From the NCBI RefSeq assembly GCF_019599405.1, contig NZ_RKLQ01000001.1:434001-498000 (forward strand): DNA of 64,000 nucleotides, in the 5' to 3' direction. Each line of letters opens with the position of its first letter. Position 1 is the first letter of the stretch. The position numbers and the translations under genes were made by a program. Origin of the DNA: Haloarcula salinisoli (lineage in GTDB: Archaea; Halobacteriota; Halobacteria; Halobacteriales; Haloarculaceae). Shown one piece after another: positions 7,616 to 62,583 of the stretch. The notes under the pieces were generated by a model, which did not search any database, was not told where the DNA came from, and saw only the letters and a list, made by a program, of their open reading frames with translations.

Positions 7616-8019
7616 CGAGACGACGAGCGAAGCGAGTCGTCTCGTATGGCGAGCGGGGAGAAACGACCCGCAAGCCGAGGGAAGCGAGTCGTCTCGCTGC
7701 TCTCCGGCTCACTTCGTTCGCCGTTCCGCTTCGAGGCGTTCCCTCCGGTCGGAACCTCGCTACTCACGGTTCGCTTCGCTCACCGTTCGTTTTCGAGACG
7801 TCTCCCGTTGGTCGACGTCTCGCTACTGCTCCGCGGCTCGCGATGCTCGCCGCGTCGCTTTCGAGATATCGACGCCGTCGATATCTCGCTACTGCTCCAC
7901 GGGTCACTTCGTTCCCCGTTCCGCTTCGAGGCGTTCCCTCCGGTCACGCCTCGCTACTCACGGTTCGCTTCGCTCACCGTTCGTTTTCGAGACGTCTCCC
8001 GTTGGTCGACGTCTCGCTA
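7616..8019. repeat. palindrome-rich spacer with about 100-bp direct repeat
   Basis: No gene is seen between the pseudokinase and dapD stops. The spacer is a chain of hairpins such as GAGACGACnnGTCGTCTC and CGAGACGTC/GACGTCTCG. A block of about 100 bp occurs twice in direct orientation (about 7722-7825 and 7918-8019); the last 71 bp of each copy (7755-7825 and 7949-8019) are identical. The second copy runs into the dapD stop codon at 8017-8019. The two genes converge here, so the hairpins may serve as a two-way transcription barrier. Confidence 0.8.
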
Positions 8020-16282: not shown

Positions 16283-16377
16283 TGTTGTACGCAGTATGCC
16301 ACGGGTCTGTGTTAAACGCCCGGGTTCCTAGCTGTCTATCTGGTCATGACTGCAACGCGTACAACAGCAGCCATGAA
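16283..16377 (-). promoter_or_regulatory. tfs promoter region
   Basis: The spacer between tfs and repeat A1 holds a TATA-like GTTAAACG (16311-16318, read on the plus strand) about 30 bp from the ATG. Nothing else is seen. Confidence 0.45.
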
Positions 16378-16679
16378 CAGCCAGAAAGCCCCGGCAGGCT
16401 CCGGTCGGGGGACTCGTTGCGCTCCTCACTCACTACGTTCGTTCCGGTGCTTACGTCGTCCGCCTTCCCGGAGCCTGCCGCCCCTTCCAGCCCCGCCCGG
16501 TCGGCCGTTCCACGGGGCGGGACTGAAAGGGGCCGAGCGCGTGGCGGCTTCGCCGCCACGTTAGACGAGGTCGGCAGAGCCGACCTCGCGCTCGACGAGC
16601 GAGACGAAGTAAGGACCGCAGCCGTAGGCGAGGACCGCAGCGAGTCGTAGCCGACGAGCGGTCGGGGGCTTTCCGGCTG
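16378..16679. repeat. structured repeat family A, copy A1
   Basis: A 302-bp non-coding element bounded by CAGCCAGAAAGCCCC (16378-16392) and GGGGCTTTCCGGCTG (16665-16679), one mismatch apart from perfect complementarity. Inside are a variable arm GGCAGGCTCCGG (16393-16404) paired with CCGGAGCCTGCC (16468-16479), and a central stem CCCCTTCCAGCCCCGCCC (16481-16498) facing GGGCGGGACTGAAAGGGG. A GTGGCGGC hairpin (about 16541-16559) lies in the last arm. Stem order outer, arm, central stem, arm gives a cloverleaf. Copies A2 and A3 share the layout. No protein is plausible here. Confidence 0.8.
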
Positions 16680-22970: not shown

Positions 22971-23190
22971 CAGCGTGGCGGCGATAGCGAGGGAGCGAAG
23001 TCGTCCGAGAGAGCTCCGCTCTCTCGTGATGCTGCAAGACCGAAGGTCTTGCACAGATCGCGAATCTCCGATTCGCTCACTCCCGAAAATCGGAGATTTT
23101 CGGACGACTCCCTCGGACCGTTCGCGCGGCACCGCCGCGCGAAGAAGCCGCCACGTTATACGGTTGCGGGCCGTCAGCCCGCAACCCACG
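22971..23190. repeat. family D repeat, partial copy D3 with nested palindromes
   Basis: Begins CAGCGTGGCGG and returns as CCGCCACGT (about 23149-23157), then GGTTGCGGGCC/GGCCCGCAACC-type stem at 23162-23186, the same module order as copies D1 and D2. The usual 3-bp loop of the first hairpin is replaced by about 165 bp of further palindromes: GAGAGAGCTCCGCTCTCTC, CAAGACC/GGTCTTG, CGAATC/GATTCG and CCGAAAATC...GATTTTCGG (23083-23103). No protein is plausible. The stretch to 23284 is the phosphodiesterase leader. Confidence 0.65.
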
Positions 23191-23284: not shown

Positions 23285-24628
23285 ATGGGACTATTCGACC
23301 GTCTGAAAGGTGACGACGCGCCGCGTGTCGCCTTCTTCGGCATCGACGGGGTGCCGTACAGCCTCATCGACGAGCATCCGGACGTGTTTCCGAACCTCAC
23401 CGAGCTCAAGGAGTCGGGCGCTGCCGGCCCCATCGACAGCATCGTGCCCCCCGAATCGAGCGCCTGCTGGCCGGCGCTGACGACCGGCGTCAACCCCGGC
23501 GAAACCGGTGTCTACGGCTTCCAGGACCGCGAGGTCGGGTCGTACGATACGTACGTCCCCATGGGTCGGGACGTCCAGGCCACCCGACTGTGGGACCGAA
23601 TCACCGACGAGGGCCGTGACGCCACCGTGCTGAACGTCCCCGTCACCTTCCCCCCACAGCGCAACGTCCAGCGGATGGTCTCGGGCTTTCTCTCGCCCGG
23701 CGTCGACAAGGCCGCCTACCCCGACGACCTGCGTGACCACCTTCAGGACACCAACTACCGCATCGACGTCAACGCGAAACTGGGCCACGACGACGACAAG
23801 ACGGAGTTCGTCGAGGACGCCCACAAGACGCTCGAACGCCGCTACGAGGCCTTCTCACACTACGTCGAGCAGGACGACTGGGACCTCTTTTTCGGCGTCT
23901 TCATGACCACCGACCGGGTCAACCACTTCCTGTTCAAGGACTACGAGCAGGACGGCGAGTACCAGGAGGAGTTCTTCGACTTCTATCGCCAGGTCGACGA
24001 GTATCTGGGCAAGCTGCGCGACCAGCTCGACGACGACGTGACGATGGTCGTCGCCTCTGACCACGGCTTCACCACCCTCGACTACGAGGTTCACTTCAAC
24101 GAGTGGCTCGCCGAGGAAGGATGGCTGGACTTTGCCGAGGACGACCACTCCGAACTCGGCGACATCAGCGAGGACACCGAGGCGTACTCGCTCATCCCGG
24201 GTCGGTTCTACATCAACCTCGAGGGCCGCGAGCCAAACGGCGGCGTCAGCGAGGACGACTACGAGGACGTCCGCGCGGACCTCAAGGAGAAACTCGAGAA
24301 CCTGGAGGGTCCCAACGGCAACAAGGTCGCCGACCGCGTCGTCACCCGCGAGGACGCCTTCCGCGGCGACCACTCCGATATCGCCCCCGACCTCGTCGTC
24401 ATCCCGAACCACGGCTTCGACCTCAAAGCCGGCTTCAAGGGCAGCGACGACGTCTTCGGCGTGGGCCCGCGCAACGGGATGCACTCGTTCGACAACGCCA
24501 CGCTGTTGGTCGACGACGCGGACGCCCGCATTAACGACGCCGACCTCTACGACATCGCGCCCACCATCCTGGACCTGATGGACCACGACTACGACCGGAC
24601 CGAGTTCGACGGTAGCAGTCTGGTATAG
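23285..24628 (+). CDS. alkaline phosphatase-superfamily phosphodiesterase
   Basis: A 447-aa type I phosphodiesterase/nucleotide pyrophosphatase-like enzyme. Metal residues are in VAFFGIDGVPYS (Asp21), the nucleophile region is SSACWPALTTGVNPGETGVYG (candidate Thr66), and the second metal set is in TTDRVNHFLF, VASDHGFTTL and the C-terminal NGMHSFDNATLL region with a His. Such haloarchaeal proteins are probably cytosolic phosphohydrolases of nucleotides or glycolipid head groups. No signal peptide. The stop TAG is part of TAGTACCTTTTT, an element shared with two other gene ends. Confidence 0.88.
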   Translation: MGLFDRLKGDDAPRVAFFGIDGVPYSLIDEHPDVFPNLTELKESGAAGPIDSIVPPESSACWPALTTGVNPGETGVYGFQDREVGSYDTYVPMGRDVQATRLWDRITDEGRDATVLNVPVTFPPQRNVQRMVSGFLSPGVDKAAYPDDLRDHLQDTNYRIDVNAKLGHDDDKTEFVEDAHKTLERRYEAFSHYVEQDDWDLFFGVFMTTDRVNHFLFKDYEQDGEYQEEFFDFYRQVDEYLGKLRDQLDDDVTMVVASDHGFTTLDYEVHFNEWLAEEGWLDFAEDDHSELGDISEDTEAYSLIPGRFYINLEGREPNGGVSEDDYEDVRADLKEKLENLEGPNGNKVADRVVTREDAFRGDHSDIAPDLVVIPNHGFDLKAGFKGSDDVFGVGPRNGMHSFDNATLLVDDADARINDADLYDIAPTILDLMDHDYDRTEFDGSSLV

Positions 24629-24880
24629 TACCTTTTTCCGCCTCGGGTTTCCTCGCGCGCTCTTAGAGCGCGCTGTGGGAACAGCGTGGCGGCTGCGCCG
24701 CCACGTCATCCGGTTGCGGGCCGCCGGCCCGCAACCCGCTCGGCGCAAAAATCTACGCTAAAAAGGCCGGAATCTCGGCCTGGGGCCTCGATTCCGGTGA
24801 AACCGCTCGCCGATGGCGAGCGGTATGCTTCGGCGGACTGCCTGCCCTTCCCCGTCGGCGCGGCACGGAGGCCGCGCCCG
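24626..24880. repeat. family D repeat, copy D1
   Basis: Starts at the phosphodiesterase stop. In order: TAGTACCTTTTTCC, hairpin GCGCGCTC/GAGCGCGC (24655-24673), hairpin GTGGCGG/CCGCCAC (24686-24704), hairpin GGTTGCGGGCC/GGCCCGCAACC (24712-24736), CAAAAATCTACGCTAAAAA, hairpin ACCGCTCGCC/GGCGAGCGGT (24802-24824), then GACTGCCTGCCC and further GC-rich pairs. Copy D2 (60283-60540, opposite strand) has the same order with different hairpin sequences. Confidence 0.75.
24629..24637 (+). terminator. T-run terminator of the phosphodiesterase gene
   Basis: TACCTTTTTCC follows the stop TAG immediately; U-rich tracts terminate archaeal transcription. The same TAGTACCTTTTT string ends the convergent cetZ gene. 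Confidence 0.5.
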
Positions 24881-24985
24881 GCCATTCGTGCGGTTATCGC
24901 AAGCATCCGCGCGAGCGTAACGAGCGCGGTTCACCGAAAGCGCGCCAGCGGGGCGCTTTCGGCATTTTTTAGCGTAGATTTTTGC
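24745..24985. repeat. 241-bp element with 20-bp perfect terminal inverted repeats
   Basis: GCAAAAATCTACGCTAAAAA at 24745-24764 and its exact reverse complement at 24966-24985 enclose GC-rich hairpins (for example CCGAAAGCGCG...CGCTTTCGG). It overlaps D1 and resembles a MITE in shape, but its left half continues as D1, so the inverted ends may simply be one more stem of the structure. No gene. Confidence 0.65.
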
Positions 24986-25032
24986 AAGGAGGGTGCCCGC
25001 AGGGCCGAAGGCCCGAGGACACCCTCCGCAGT

Positions 25033-25041
25033 AAAAAGGTA
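25033..25041 (-). terminator. T-run terminator of cetZ
   Basis: On the minus strand the cetZ stop TAG continues as TACCTTTTTAC, mirroring the phosphodiesterase end at 24626. Confidence 0.5.
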
Positions 25042-26115
25042 CTACATCAGCGAGTCGAGGTCGTCGCTGGAGTACTCTTCGGGGTCGGTGTCGTTGCCCT
25101 GGGACTTCGCTGCCTGTTTGGCCTTCTCCATGTACTCGTTGACGCGGTCGGAGCGCTCGATGCCCGAGAGGACGACCAGCGCGGCGATCTTCTCCGAGCC
25201 GAGCGGGAAGTCCCCGCCCCGGACTTCCATGCTGCCGGTCTCGTCTTCGACCCAGCGGCGGGCGCGTTCGACGCCCTTCCGGGAGAGGCGTTCGGGGTCG
25301 CCCGCGATGACCAGCAGCGCGGATTCGGCGTCGGTGGCGTTGGGGAGACTCATACTGGACAGCATAGCGTTTCGGGTGACGCTGGTGATGGTGTTGACGT
25401 TCTCCGCGGCGTCCTCGCTGGCCTCGGCGGCGGCGTAGCCGACGGCTGAGATGCCGCCGCTGCGGAGGGTGTTGATTATCTCCGAGGAGTCGACGACACT
25501 CTCGCCGACGCCTTCGACGGCCTCGCCGGCGGCCAGCAGCAGGCCGATGCGCTGGGCGATGGCGTCGTTGATGCGTTTGTACCCTTCGGCGACGCTGTCG
25601 CCGGAGCCGCGCCAGGCGTCGTTGTCGACGAGGATGACGGAGTCTGACTCCCGGATGGCGGTCTTCAGCGAGCGGCCGGCGTTGGCCTGGTAGAGCCCGC
25701 CCTCGTCGTCCCCGGGGAGGATACCGAGGGTGTAGACGGGCATCTCGTAGATACGTTTGAGTTCGCGGACCAGCATCGGCGCGCCGCCCGAACCGGTGCC
25801 ACCGCCCAGCCCGGCGACCACCACGACGGCTTCGGCCTCGGTGGTGATGCGCCCGTCCATGTTGTCCAGCACCTCCGTCGCCGACTCCTGCATTATCTGG
25901 GCGCCGAGTTCGTTGTCGCCGCCGACGCCGTGACCTTTGACGCGGTCCTGGCCGATGAGAGTGGTGTCGAGTTCGAGGTTCTGCAGGTCGGCTCTGGCGG
26001 AGTTGACCGCGAGGGCGCCACGGACGGCGTTGAAGCCCATGTTGTAGTCGAACTCCGCGAGGGCCTGTGTGACCTTCCCCCCGGCTTGACCGACACCTAT
26101 CAGGACGACTTTCAT
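25042..26115 (-). CDS. cetZ: CetZ tubulin/FtsZ-like cytoskeletal protein
   Basis: A 357-aa GTPase of the CetZ family, which controls cell shape and motility in haloarchaea. The N-terminal GVGQAGGKV loop, NSARADL segment, the tubulin signature GGGTGSG at 104-110, and the NDAWR and VVDSSEIINTL segments are all present, as is the synergy-loop region. The C-terminal tail is acidic and glutamine-containing. It is shorter than CetZ1 of Haloferax, so it may be one of the divergent paralogues. Next upstream on the same strand is a small winged-helix gene. Confidence 0.93.
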   Translation of the reverse strand: MKVVLIGVGQAGGKVTQALAEFDYNMGFNAVRGALAVNSARADLQNLELDTTLIGQDRVKGHGVGGDNELGAQIMQESATEVLDNMDGRITTEAEAVVVVAGLGGGTGSGGAPMLVRELKRIYEMPVYTLGILPGDDEGGLYQANAGRSLKTAIRESDSVILVDNDAWRGSGDSVAEGYKRINDAIAQRIGLLLAAGEAVEGVGESVVDSSEIINTLRSGGISAVGYAAAEASEDAAENVNTITSVTRNAMLSSMSLPNATDAESALLVIAGDPERLSRKGVERARRWVEDETGSMEVRGGDFPLGSEKIAALVVLSGIERSDRVNEYMEKAKQAAKSQGNDTDPEEYSSDDLDSLM

Positions 26116-52390: not shown

Positions 52391-52478
52391 TGAACTGGGG
52401 TTTGCGAGGACGGTGTTTGTGCGTTTCGAAGCTAGGTATCGGCGTTTGGGTTTCTGACGGGAACGCTACCGCTCGGAA
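52391..52478 (-). promoter_or_regulatory. promoter region of the RNA methyltransferase
   Basis: The 88-bp spacer between the ATG and repeat A2 has no clear TATA box; weak candidate GGTGTTTGTG at about 52412-52421. Nothing else is seen. Confidence 0.3.
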
Positions 52479-52742
52479 CCGCCAGAAAGCCCCGACCGGT
52501 TACACTCCCACGACTCGCTTCGGTCCTCACTCACTGCGTTCGTTGCGGTCCTTGCGTCGTCGGGGTTCGTGTAACCGGTCGCCCCTTTCAGTCCCGCGCG
52601 TAGCCGGTTGGTCAACTGCATGGGTGGGACTGAAAGGGGCGGCCTGTTCGACGACGGCGGGCGACGTAAGCACCACAGCGAGTGTAACGAGCGAGGAGCG
52701 CAGCGAGGCCCCCGAGTCGAACGGGTCGGGGCTTTCTGGCGG
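52479..52742. repeat. structured repeat family A, copy A2
   Basis: A 264-bp element. Outer stem: 19 bp perfect, 52479-52497 with 52724-52742 (CCAGAAAGCCCCG core). First arm: GACCGGTTACAC (52494-52505) with GTGTAACCGGTC (52569-52580). Central stem: GCCCCTTTCAGTCCC (52581-52595) with GGGACTGAAAGGGGC (52626-52640), loop with GCCGGTTGGTCAACTGC. Last arm: CCTGTTCGAC (52643-52652) with GTCGAACGGG (52716-52725), one G-U type pair. It is the simplest copy and shows the four-stem cloverleaf plan most cleanly. It lies 85 bp from the end of tnpB. Confidence 0.85.
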
Positions 52743-52827
52743 TGAACACTCACGGTACTATCCGCAAACCCAATCACAGTCACGTCTGCTAGCAGCCATG
52801 CCTGTCAACTACCCCACCCTACTTCGC
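52743..52827. other. spacer with right end of TnpB element
   Basis: Contains TCAACTACCCCACCCT at 52805-52820, which pairs with AGGGTGGG (52852-52859) inside the tnpB end. By analogy to IS200/IS605-family right ends the element probably stops near 52806; a guide, if any, would be copied from DNA just beyond. Confidence 0.45.
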
Positions 52828-59667: not shown

Positions 59668-60282
59668 ATGGCAGACATCAACATCGAACCGAGCGAACTC
59701 GGTCTCGAACTGGCACTCGAACAGTTCCGGCTCCCCGACGACGTCGCGGCGGGACTTGGCGACCTCTACGGGACGACCCCACCCGATACCGCGGCGGCCT
59801 GGGTCGAGATGCTCCGTGACCGCAAGCACGAGTCCGACGGCGAACCACCCAGCGTCGCGGACCTCTGTACGACCGACGACGGCGCCCACGCGTTCGTCGG
59901 TGAGGACCGCTCCCAGTCGTACATCTGCGTGCTCGACCCGCTGGTCGTCCCGTTCCTGACCGACATGCCCGGAACCGTCCGCTCGACGACGCCCGAGCGC
60001 GGGACCACGGTGGAGATAACCCTCGGCCCAGCGGGCGTCGAATACTCCCACCCCGACGCCGTCGTCTCCCTGGGCGTGGCCGACGAGGTCGACTGCGCGT
60101 CGTGTACGTCCATCGAGGAGACCTACGAGCACACCTGTCCGTACATCCACGTCTTCGAGGACGAGGCCGAATACGAGACCTGGGCCGCTGAGACCGACGC
60201 GGCGACGACGAGTGTCCCGGTCGAGACTGGCGTCGCGCTCGCCGGCGGCCTCGCCGAGAATCTGTTCGGCCTGGCCAGCTGA
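59668..60282 (+). CDS. MerB-like (alkylmercury lyase family) protein
   Basis: A 204-aa protein related to organomercurial lyase. The region LDPLVVPFLTDMPGTVRSTT, PERGTTVEITLGPAGVEYSH and EHTCPYIHVFEDEAEYETWA follows the MerB core. Of the known catalytic Cys pair, the second (Cys157 in HTCPYIHVF) is kept; the first (Cys96 of MerB) is replaced by Thr at about 108. Extra Cys143/146 (DCASC) are present. Therefore classic C-Hg cleavage is doubtful. Divergent HxlR regulator suggests an inducible thiol or metal response. Confidence 0.78.
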   Translation: MADINIEPSELGLELALEQFRLPDDVAAGLGDLYGTTPPDTAAAWVEMLRDRKHESDGEPPSVADLCTTDDGAHAFVGEDRSQSYICVLDPLVVPFLTDMPGTVRSTTPERGTTVEITLGPAGVEYSHPDAVVSLGVADEVDCASCTSIEETYEHTCPYIHVFEDEAEYETWAAETDAATTSVPVETGVALAGGLAENLFGLAS

Positions 60283-60540
60283 ATCGGCCGAGCGCGGCCT
60301 CCGGGCCGCGCTGACGGGGACGGGCAGGCAGTCCTGTCGAGCATACCGCTCGCCGCTGGCGAGCGGTTTCACCGGAATCGAACGCAGTGAGATTCCGGCC
60401 TTTTTAGCGTAGATTTTTGCCGGGAGTGGGTTGCGGGCCAACGGCCCGCAACCGAACAACGTGGCGGCTTCGCCGCCACGCAGTTCCCGCAGGCCGACGA
60501 AGTCGGCCTAGGAAACCCGACCGGGAAAAAGGTACTACTT
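60283..60540. repeat. family D repeat, copy D2 (reverse orientation)
   Basis: Read on the minus strand from 60540: GTAGTACCTTTTT just after the nucleotidyltransferase stop, hairpin AGGCCGAC/GTCGGCCT (60491-60509), GTGGCGG/CCGCCAC hairpin (about 60461-60479), GGTTGCGGGCC/GGCCCGCAACC (60429-60453), CAAAAATCTACGCTAAAAA (60402-60420), hairpin ACCGCTCGCC/GGCGAGCGGT (60345-60367), CTGCCTGCCC and GCGCGGCC pairs (to about 60290). Same order as D1; the first hairpin is a different sequence that still pairs. Confidence 0.75.
60526..60537 (-). terminator. T-run terminator of the nucleotidyltransferase gene
   Basis: On the minus strand TAGTACCTTTTT begins 3 nt after the TGA stop, the same string as at the ends of the phosphodiesterase and cetZ genes. 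Confidence 0.45.
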
Positions 60541-61499
60541 CACTGCACGCGGGTGTTCTGGCCAAGCAACGAGCCGTGGAGGTCCTTGTCGTGGACGCTC
60601 GCCTCCTCGTCGATGACGGAGTCGGAGACGTCGGCGTCAGTGATGGACGCGTCCTGGAACACGACCGTGTTTTCGACGCTGGAGTTCTTGATGGTCGCGC
60701 CGGGCAGCACGTGGACGTTGTCGCCGAGCTTGGAGTTCTCGACGGTGGCGTCGTCAGCGATTATCTGGCCGCCTTCGAGGGCGAACTCGACGGCTTCGAG
60801 ATAGCTGTCGGCCGTCCCGATGTCGTACCAGACGTCGTCGAAGCTAAAGGGTCGCACGGAGCCCTGGTCGACGAGCCACTGGATGAACCAGCCGGGCTCG
60901 TCGGGGTTGTTGTCGCCGGCGAGGTACTCGTCGAAGCGGATTGCGTCGGCTGGGAAGGCATAGCAGGCGATGGAGACGAGCGTGCTCTTGGGGTTGTCGG
61001 GCTTCTCCTGGAAGTCGACGATCTCGTCGCCCTCGACCTGGATGAGGCCGTAGGACTTTGCCTTCTCCAGGTCGCCGACGTCGTACGCAGCGAGGGTCGG
61101 GTCGTCGTAGCTCTTGAAGTGGTCGATGAACTCGCTGATGTCGAAGCCAAAGAGGTTGTCACCGGCGATGACCAGCAGGTCCTCGTCGCCGAGCCCCTCG
61201 CGCTCGACGAGCTGTGCCAGCGCGCCGACGACGCCGAACTTCTCGTCCTCGTCGCTGGTGTCCTCGACGGACATACTTATCTTGTCGGTCCCGCGCTCCT
61301 CGAAGTGTGTCTCGAACTCGTCGGCGAAGGCGTCGTTCGTGCTTATCAGTATCTCACTGATTCGCTCGTCGCCTTCGAGCTCGTCGACGATGCCGTCGAT
61401 CACGGTCGACTCGCCGACCGGCAGCAACATCTTGGGTCGGTGTCGGGTGATCGGCCACATTCGGGTTGCGTATCCCCCGGCAAGGACAATTGCCTTCAT
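60540..61499 (-). CDS. sugar-phosphate nucleotidyltransferase
   Basis: A 319-aa NDP-sugar pyrophosphorylase. The nucleotide motif LAGGYATRMWP is at 5-15, then KMLLPVGE, VIAGDNLFGFD, FQEKPDNP and WYDIGTADSYLEA, all of the GlmU/RmlA/AglF fold. The C-terminal 70 residues form a left-handed beta-helix (IIADDATVENSKLGDNVHVL, IKNSSVENTVVFQDASITDA). In haloarchaea such enzymes supply sugars for N-glycosylation or exopolysaccharide. ATG 61499 gives the standard start MKAIVLAGG. The exact sugar is open. Confidence 0.9.
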   Translation of the reverse strand: MKAIVLAGGYATRMWPITRHRPKMLLPVGESTVIDGIVDELEGDERISEILISTNDAFADEFETHFEERGTDKISMSVEDTSDEDEKFGVVGALAQLVEREGLGDEDLLVIAGDNLFGFDISEFIDHFKSYDDPTLAAYDVGDLEKAKSYGLIQVEGDEIVDFQEKPDNPKSTLVSIACYAFPADAIRFDEYLAGDNNPDEPGWFIQWLVDQGSVRPFSFDDVWYDIGTADSYLEAVEFALEGGQIIADDATVENSKLGDNVHVLPGATIKNSSVENTVVFQDASITDADVSDSVIDEEASVHDKDLHGSLLGQNTRVQ

Positions 61500-62080: not shown

Positions 62081-62160
62081 GGGCGTGCTTCTCGCGGACG
62101 GGTAATAGTTCGTGGCCCGGGCTCTGGGACGGTCTTTGGTTCGAGCAATGGGAGTTCGAA
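62081..62160 (-). promoter_or_regulatory. mce promoter region
   Basis: GGGTAATAGTTC (62100-62111) lies about 20-31 bp ahead of ATG 62080 and is the probable TATA box. Confidence 0.45.
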
Positions 62161-62530
62161 CTGCCAGAAAGCCCCGGCACGCTAACCTCGGGGGTGGTTC
62201 GAGAGAGCTTCGCTCTCTCGTCATCCCGAAAATCAGAGATTTTCGGAGAACTCGCTGTGCTCCTCACTACGTTGTCGTTCGAGAGAGCTTCGCTCTCTCG
62301 TGATCACGGAAGGCCTCTGGTCTTCCGAACGACGGTGCTTGCGTCGTCCGCCGTCGGTTAGCGTGCCGCCCGTTTCAGTCCCGCTCATAGCCGGTTGACC
62401 GGTCAGCATGGGTGGGACTGAAAGGGGCCGCGCTCTGGACGAACCCCGACGATGCAAGGACCACAATGAACGCAGTGAATGAGGACCGCAGCGAGGCGCG
62501 GGAGTTCAGAGCGCGGGGGCTTTCTGGTCG
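62161..62530. repeat. structured repeat family A, copy A3 with nested palindromes
   Basis: A 370-bp element. Outer stem CCAGAAAGCCCC (62164-62175) / GGGGCTTTCTGG (62516-62527). First arm GGCACGCTAAC (62176-62186) / GTTAGCGTGCC (62357-62367); central stem TTTCAGTCCC / GGGACTGAAAGGGG; last arm CCGCGCTCTGGAC (62428-62440) / GTTCAGAGCGCGG (62504-62516) with one wobble. The first arm's loop is enlarged by two copies of CGAGAGAGCTTCGCTCTCTC, CCGAAAATC...GATTTTCGG (62226-62246) and GGAAGGCC...GGTCTTCC. No gene. Confidence 0.85.
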
Positions 62531-62583
62531 TTAGAATTCCGATTAGCTCAAGTAAACACGATCCTCCGCTCCGGGACTCCCAC

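Follow-up and report, generated by a model that had tools for sequence, protein, structure and literature searches.

Family D, as judged from comparison of its copies, is probably a multicopy, non-coding palindromic element found in Halobacteria; it would insert at gene 3′ ends and act there as a REP-like two-way terminator. Three copies lie in the window, i.e., the 64-kb stretch of the Haloarcula salinisoli genome (the source genome) that was analysed (Table 1). The initial annotation had assigned D1 and D2 to one family, and indeed their modules align in the same order and both are matched by the covariance model. Its list of copies stands only in part: D1′, on the reverse strand, was overlooked, and D3, listed as a partial copy, is rejected as a member, since it has neither the GTACC-T5 end nor A5-box-A5. 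D3 has in common with D1 and D2 only the hairpin module made up of GTGGCGG and GGTTGCGGGCC (module E).

Table 1. Family D copies and adjoining features in the window (+, forward strand; -, reverse strand).
Feature	Position	Strand	Remarks
Stop codon (TAG) of phosphodiesterase-like gene	24626-24628	+	D1 begins with its G
D1 core	24628-24829	+	GTACC-T5, hairpin 1 (module E nested within), A5-box-A5, hairpins 2 and 3, ATGCT; covariance model match 1.0e-16
Module E within hairpin 1 of D1	24683-24735	+	
D1 box	24745-24764	+	GC-A5-TCTACGCT-A5; its TAC is complementary to X (GTA)
D1 tail hairpin	24841-24883 (3′ limit approximate)	+	CCTGCCCTTCCCCG ... CCCGGCC
D1′ (third copy)	24902-25042	-	Covariance model match 3.9e-23
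Stop codon (TAG) of CetZ-like gene	25042-25044	-	One base in common with D1′
D2 core	60340-60535	-	Nested module E at 60482-60430; covariance model match 1.8e-17
D2 box	60401-60420	-	
D2 tail hairpin	60283-60328 (60283 approximate)	-	Runs up to the stop codon of the MerB-like gene (59668-60282, +)
D3 of the initial annotation	22971-23190	+	Stand-alone module E and further nested palindromes; no family D copy

The fixed parts of the element are, in order, X (three bases), CC, T5, hairpin 1, A5, an 8-nt box, and A5. Most copies then continue with hairpin 2, GTGAA, hairpin 3, and ATGCT; some are without hairpins 2 and 3. D1, D1′, and D2 all contain X-CC-T5 followed by A5-box-A5, with X complementary to the box. 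Within the window, the box GCAAAAATCTACGCTAAAAA occurs three times versus none in 100 shuffles, and AGTACCTTTTT three times versus a shuffled mean of 0.04.

Conservation was assessed in 156 unique copies from 158 loci (59, L162-L220, together with 99 of 100 stretches, L379 being left out); these loci are the best-scoring matches and not the full set. Among the 154 copies that could be parsed, 150 have an X triplet complementary to that of the box, whereas pairing in shuffled controls reached at most 49%. Seven types of pair are represented, namely GTA/TAC (73), CCA/TGG (56), GAA/TTC (12), CGA/TCG (6), and three more that occur once each. The T run has a length of exactly five bases in 149/156 copies, and in 137/154 each of the two A runs is also exactly of that length. 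A C follows the forward T run in 79/156, and a tail hairpin follows 51 of the 156 cores. Downstream of the orthologue of the D1 gene in another genome (L422 in G228), TTGTTAC/GTAACAA replaces T5/A5 and the ends are CCAC/GTGG.

RNAalifold found no pairs in a MAFFT alignment, and the resulting first model (R1), which held sequence only, was set aside for R2. The covariance model contains 45 pairs and was built from 34 of 52 unique parsed sequences. With its structure, which was derived by averaging single-sequence pair probabilities over the same sequences that were then tested and is thereby biased in its own favour, 84.6% of cells are paired and 28 pairs show double changes, a result reached by none of 500 shuffles.

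The covariance search that the initial annotation had proposed as a check extended the family to 46 or 47 copies in the source genome, in two model searches (E ≤ 1e-3). Matches are present in 31 of 32 congeneric genomes and, at 1e-6, in 84 of 116 genomes of Halobacteria; across the phylum, 23 of 196 genomes were matched, all 23 from the order of the host. A screen of 391 Halobacteria genomes for the 20-nt box, allowing at most two mismatches, was positive in 115. Among the matches listed, the carriers of the box include Haloarcula, Halobacterium, Natrialba, Natronococcus, Natrinema, Halorientalis, and Halovenus, and the AT-rich bacterial matches that were inspected are without the element and look like chance. 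Eleven plasmid records were matched, all haloarchaeal, either with no feature under the match or without annotation. Phage records gave no match; an 18-nt box was found in three stretches of viral contigs, of which one, partly read, is AT-rich and without other parts of the element. The literature searched, which excluded most subscription papers, held no account of family D, and four fixed-motif strings of 13-14 nt were unmatched there.

The copies adjoin gene ends. With genes called by crude ORF filters, which applies to all position and arrangement counts given here, X has a sense stop codon no more than 12 nt away in 64/77 GTA, 8/12 GAA, 18/56 CCA, and 1/6 CGA copies, while eight shifted control positions gave 0-1 of about 156. 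In 41 of the 64 stop-adjacent GTA copies, the junction is TA|G, with the G belonging to the element. Gene-end linkage, on which the initial annotation had made its reading depend, thus extends to further copies, and its statement that D1 and D2 start close to stops is also borne out: D1 overlaps a TAG by one base and the GTACC of D2 begins 4 nt past the stop codon at 60540-60542. Among the 131 of 156 copies that could be classified on both sides, 63 lie between convergent genes, 66 face one gene end, and 2 are divergent, as against 23 convergent and 42 divergent among 201 other neighbouring pairs at the same loci (Fisher p = 1.4e-13 for convergent enrichment and 2.8e-8 for divergent avoidance). 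D1 and D1′ stand face to face between the convergent phosphodiesterase-like and CetZ-like genes. The interval that separates a nucleotidyltransferase gene from the MerB-like gene is filled by D2, which the convergent stops of these genes (60540 and 60282) bound on both sides; the earlier description of each copy as pointing away from its gene thus covers only one side of D2, and many copies are likewise bounded by gene ends on both sides. In 46 of the 131, a gene start rather than a gene end lies at the 3′ side. One copy (L213) begins 1 nt past a tRNA, and others lie near tRNAs in L011 and L199. Repeated fragments of tRNA-gene 3′ ends adjoin the element copies at the latter two loci.

Several lines of evidence suggest that the element has moved. 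Direct repeats flanking the element score at least 23 in 8 of the 156 copies, compared with a control maximum of 15 in 775 pairings. The comparison was widened to 264 pattern cores, drawn from all loci and still including some double entries. Of these, 28 rows score at least 17, corresponding to 24 distinct copies after four double-entry pairs were merged; the control for this set, made up of 792 random pairings, had a maximum of 56, with 13 as the 99th percentile and 25.9 as the 99.9th. The repeats of these 24 copies are 23-144 nt long, and the duplicated sequence is the 3′ end of a gene in all 20 copies with a callable host gene. The duplicated gene end is exclusively convergent, i.e., antisense to the element, in 19 copies and exclusively sense in none; one copy, L011, near a tRNA, has both, and four were uncalled. 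In the 19 antisense cases, the host gene runs toward the 3′ end of the element, and where a copy stands straight after a sense stop, that gene is without a duplication. Antisense insertion at the 3′ side does not account for the 46 copies with a gene start there. At the 5′ side the junction is formed by X, in most cases together with 0-9 added bases (two copies have 26 and 16), and the 3′ end is variable.

Empty sites are common. Among 30 gatA loci (one unreadable), there are five clear copies and three remnants, and the rest are empty; among 30 nuoI loci (one unreadable), three clear copies and one remnant were found, the rest again being empty. The D1 site holds six intact copies and one degenerate copy in 30 loci, and the D2 site five copies, two of them altered, in 30 loci, so most sister species are without the element at both sites. 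At the 3′ end of a Dph6-like gene, insertions occupy two points that differ between species. In the source genome, two stacked copies of different types occupy one gene end, which is itself present three times (L379, G000:C1:59488-62956). Donor copies were sought in the source genome without a close one being found: among 32 copies compared, none is more than 85% like another, and there is no sign of a recent burst. Taken together, the sites point to a mobile family, some copies of which would have jumped into gene ends.

Module E has the same insertion point in hairpin 1 of D1, of D2, and of a copy from another species (L332). Among the sites that were lined up, five other species have D1 sites without the insert, and two others have D2 sites without it. 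The solitary module E at D3 follows the stop codon of a short ORF and carries about 145 nt of further palindromes within its first loop; a related module of this type is present in G397 (L416). The window contains other repeats as well. Those at 16375-16676, 52476-52743, and 62158-62532 have CCAGAAAGCCCC ... GGGGCTTTCTGG ends, in direct and inverted orientation, and are perhaps family A of the initial annotation, and 7697-8019 is a tandem duplication, with a period of about 195 bp, of palindromes of a kind common in the source genome.

Insertion would leave the element with an exact 5′ end (usually 0-9 added bases), an irregular 3′ end, and a long duplication of the target. Loss of spare sequence may then draw the stop codon of the next gene up to X. 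The D1 site presents such steps, with stop, AATA, and GTACC in G397 and TA followed by GTACC in the source genome (G000), which fits a stop moving up to X. Once in place, the forward CC-T5 after the upstream stop would halt RNA polymerase coming from that gene, and T5-N8-T5 on the opposite strand, after hairpin 2, would halt polymerase coming from the facing gene, so that the element would separate its neighbours as a two-way terminator. This function is suggested by the resemblance of both motifs to the termination signals of Haloferax; in Haloferax volcanii, T5C stops 95% of transcripts in vivo (PMC7237163). The fixed motifs may be preserved by selection for termination or for the mobilising enzyme, and correction of the palindromes could account for fast turnover of the hairpin arms. 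At the D1 site of six species, the coding ends are 87-93% alike but the elements only 59-79%; GTACCTTTTT and A5-box-A5 are identical despite this divergence. Termination alone does not explain the X-box pairing, because an RNA ending at the first T5 would exclude the P1 partner.

The element could instead be a structured 3′ UTR RNA (a regulatory element, a source of small RNA, or a stability element) that folds into P1 and three hairpins, is bound by protein, and is reached by transcripts reading through. Its location after stop codons, the strong covariation of its pairs, and the X-box complementarity across seven types would all suit such an RNA, as would the single T-G pair type of hairpin 1, which gives 40 cases that we take to be one fixed U-G of the consensus (columns 24-53). 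A selected RNA should, however, show wobble on one strand, and when hairpin mismatches were counted without favouring wobble pairs, G-T (9) was no commoner than A-C (15) beyond the fixed pair, and hairpin 2 contained no G-T in 1231 pairs. Since no G-U preference exists past one fixed pair, the hairpins look like near-perfect DNA palindromes. Furthermore, T5 straight after the stop would end most transcripts before the fold, and many copies are antisense to the gene beside which they inserted. No Rfam family was matched at the curated threshold in the window, and ten other loci gave tRNAs only; the best sub-threshold match scored 20 bits against the 45 required. A structured 3′ UTR RNA is therefore considered unlikely. 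The earlier designation as a structured 3′-end family is retained insofar as it places the family at gene ends, while the pairing itself looks like maintenance of DNA palindromes and not RNA structure. It is less likely still that family D is immobile, with terminators arising and vanishing in place and gene ends duplicated by replication slippage at the palindromes. Palindromes do promote replication slippage, and no near-identical copies were found among the 32 compared. Slippage would nevertheless have to yield the same multi-part motif set at unrelated sites in different genera, two insertion points in one gene end across species, and stacked copies of different type.

If family D is mobile, the question becomes which enzyme moves it. 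One candidate is a Y1 transposase: family D would then be either a REP proper or a PATE-like, transposase-free relative of IS200/IS605, the box would serve as guide, and X would be where cleavage occurs or the target lies. This would account for the palindromes and has a haloarchaeal precedent (PMC3119063); the X-box base pairing resembles the guide and cleavage site of IS608 (PMC8266576), and a D core lies near one of 30 Y1 loci. Y1_Tnp is present, however, in only 21 of 32 congeneric genomes, and the 11 without a Y1 gene all have D matches, with 41 in G336 alone. Long target duplications, as seen in 24 copies, are absent from PATEs as described (PMC3119063). X as an IS605-type target site was rejected for the Dph6-like gene, where the empty-site junction has no GTAC. 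Movement by a Y1 transposase thus appears about as improbable as the 3′ UTR RNA. A retroelement inserted via target-primed reverse transcription would leave duplications that are long and vary in length, additional bases at one of the junctions, a precise end opposite a ragged one, and an orientation fixed relative to the target gene, much as observed. Yet the RVT_1 profile, the only reverse transcriptase profile searched, was matched in 0 of 32 congeneric genomes (3 of 14 in the control), and this origin is regarded as the least probable of those weighed. The gene-end element with a terminator role is preferred. More tentatively, and with considerable doubt, it may represent a class of archaeal mobile elements not described before. 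Such an element would be a palindromic cassette carrying a self-pairing tag at its 5′ side; it would insert antisense at gene ends, with a 5′ end that is precise, a 3′ end that is ragged, and gene-restoring duplications of 23-144 nt, and would then be kept as a two-way terminator. The enzyme involved would belong neither to the known reverse transcriptases nor to the Y1 transposases.

If the proposed reading is true, family D is an archaeal equivalent of bacterial REP, assembled from other components, and predicted terminator cassettes are repeated at the gene ends of one of the best-studied archaeal groups. It also makes testable what inserts a tiny palindrome antisense at a gene end with duplications far beyond the length made by ordinary transposases, and the seven natural tag-box types provide a ready set for recognition tests.

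Among known systems, REP, BIME, and REPIN sequences with their RAYT are, like family D, multicopy palindromes downstream of genes, for the most part where the flanking ORFs converge or run in the same direction (PMC3733652); the location of D agrees with this, with 2 divergent cases in 131. The GTAG tag at one end of REP often provides the TAG stop of the flanking ORF (PMC3733652), as the G of D does, and the guide-like role of the REP tag (PMC8266576) is a further likeness. REP sequences, however, are 20-50 nt long with an unpaired GTAG or CGTC tag (PMC3733652, PMC8266576), whereas D cores are mostly longer than 120 nt, contain several hairpins, and have a tag paired to an internal box. Unlike REP, D also has T5 tracts on both strands and duplications of 23-144 nt. 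REP goes with the RAYT (Y1) transposase (PMC3733652, PMC8266576), which sets it apart from an element with 11 of 32 hosts lacking any Y1 gene. D as REP or REPIN proper was accordingly rejected, both on size and unpaired tag and on Y1 in the host. By analogy, D would work like REP, yet it is no REP by the tests made. The PATEs and SMRs of Haloquadratum are likewise palindromic, transposase-free haloarchaeal elements (PMC3119063), and SMR-A inserts into the palindromes of other elements (PMC3119063), as module E does in D. They are described there as lacking target duplications, in contrast to the 24 distinct D copies; this point speaks against D as an IS200/IS605-derived PATE, and the two are set apart by description only. 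Finally, in the T-tract terminators of haloarchaea, T5(C) downstream of genes ends transcription (PMC7237163), as is predicted for D; D differs from plain T-tract terminators in being a repeated element with T5 in both directions, fixed spacing, and palindromes.
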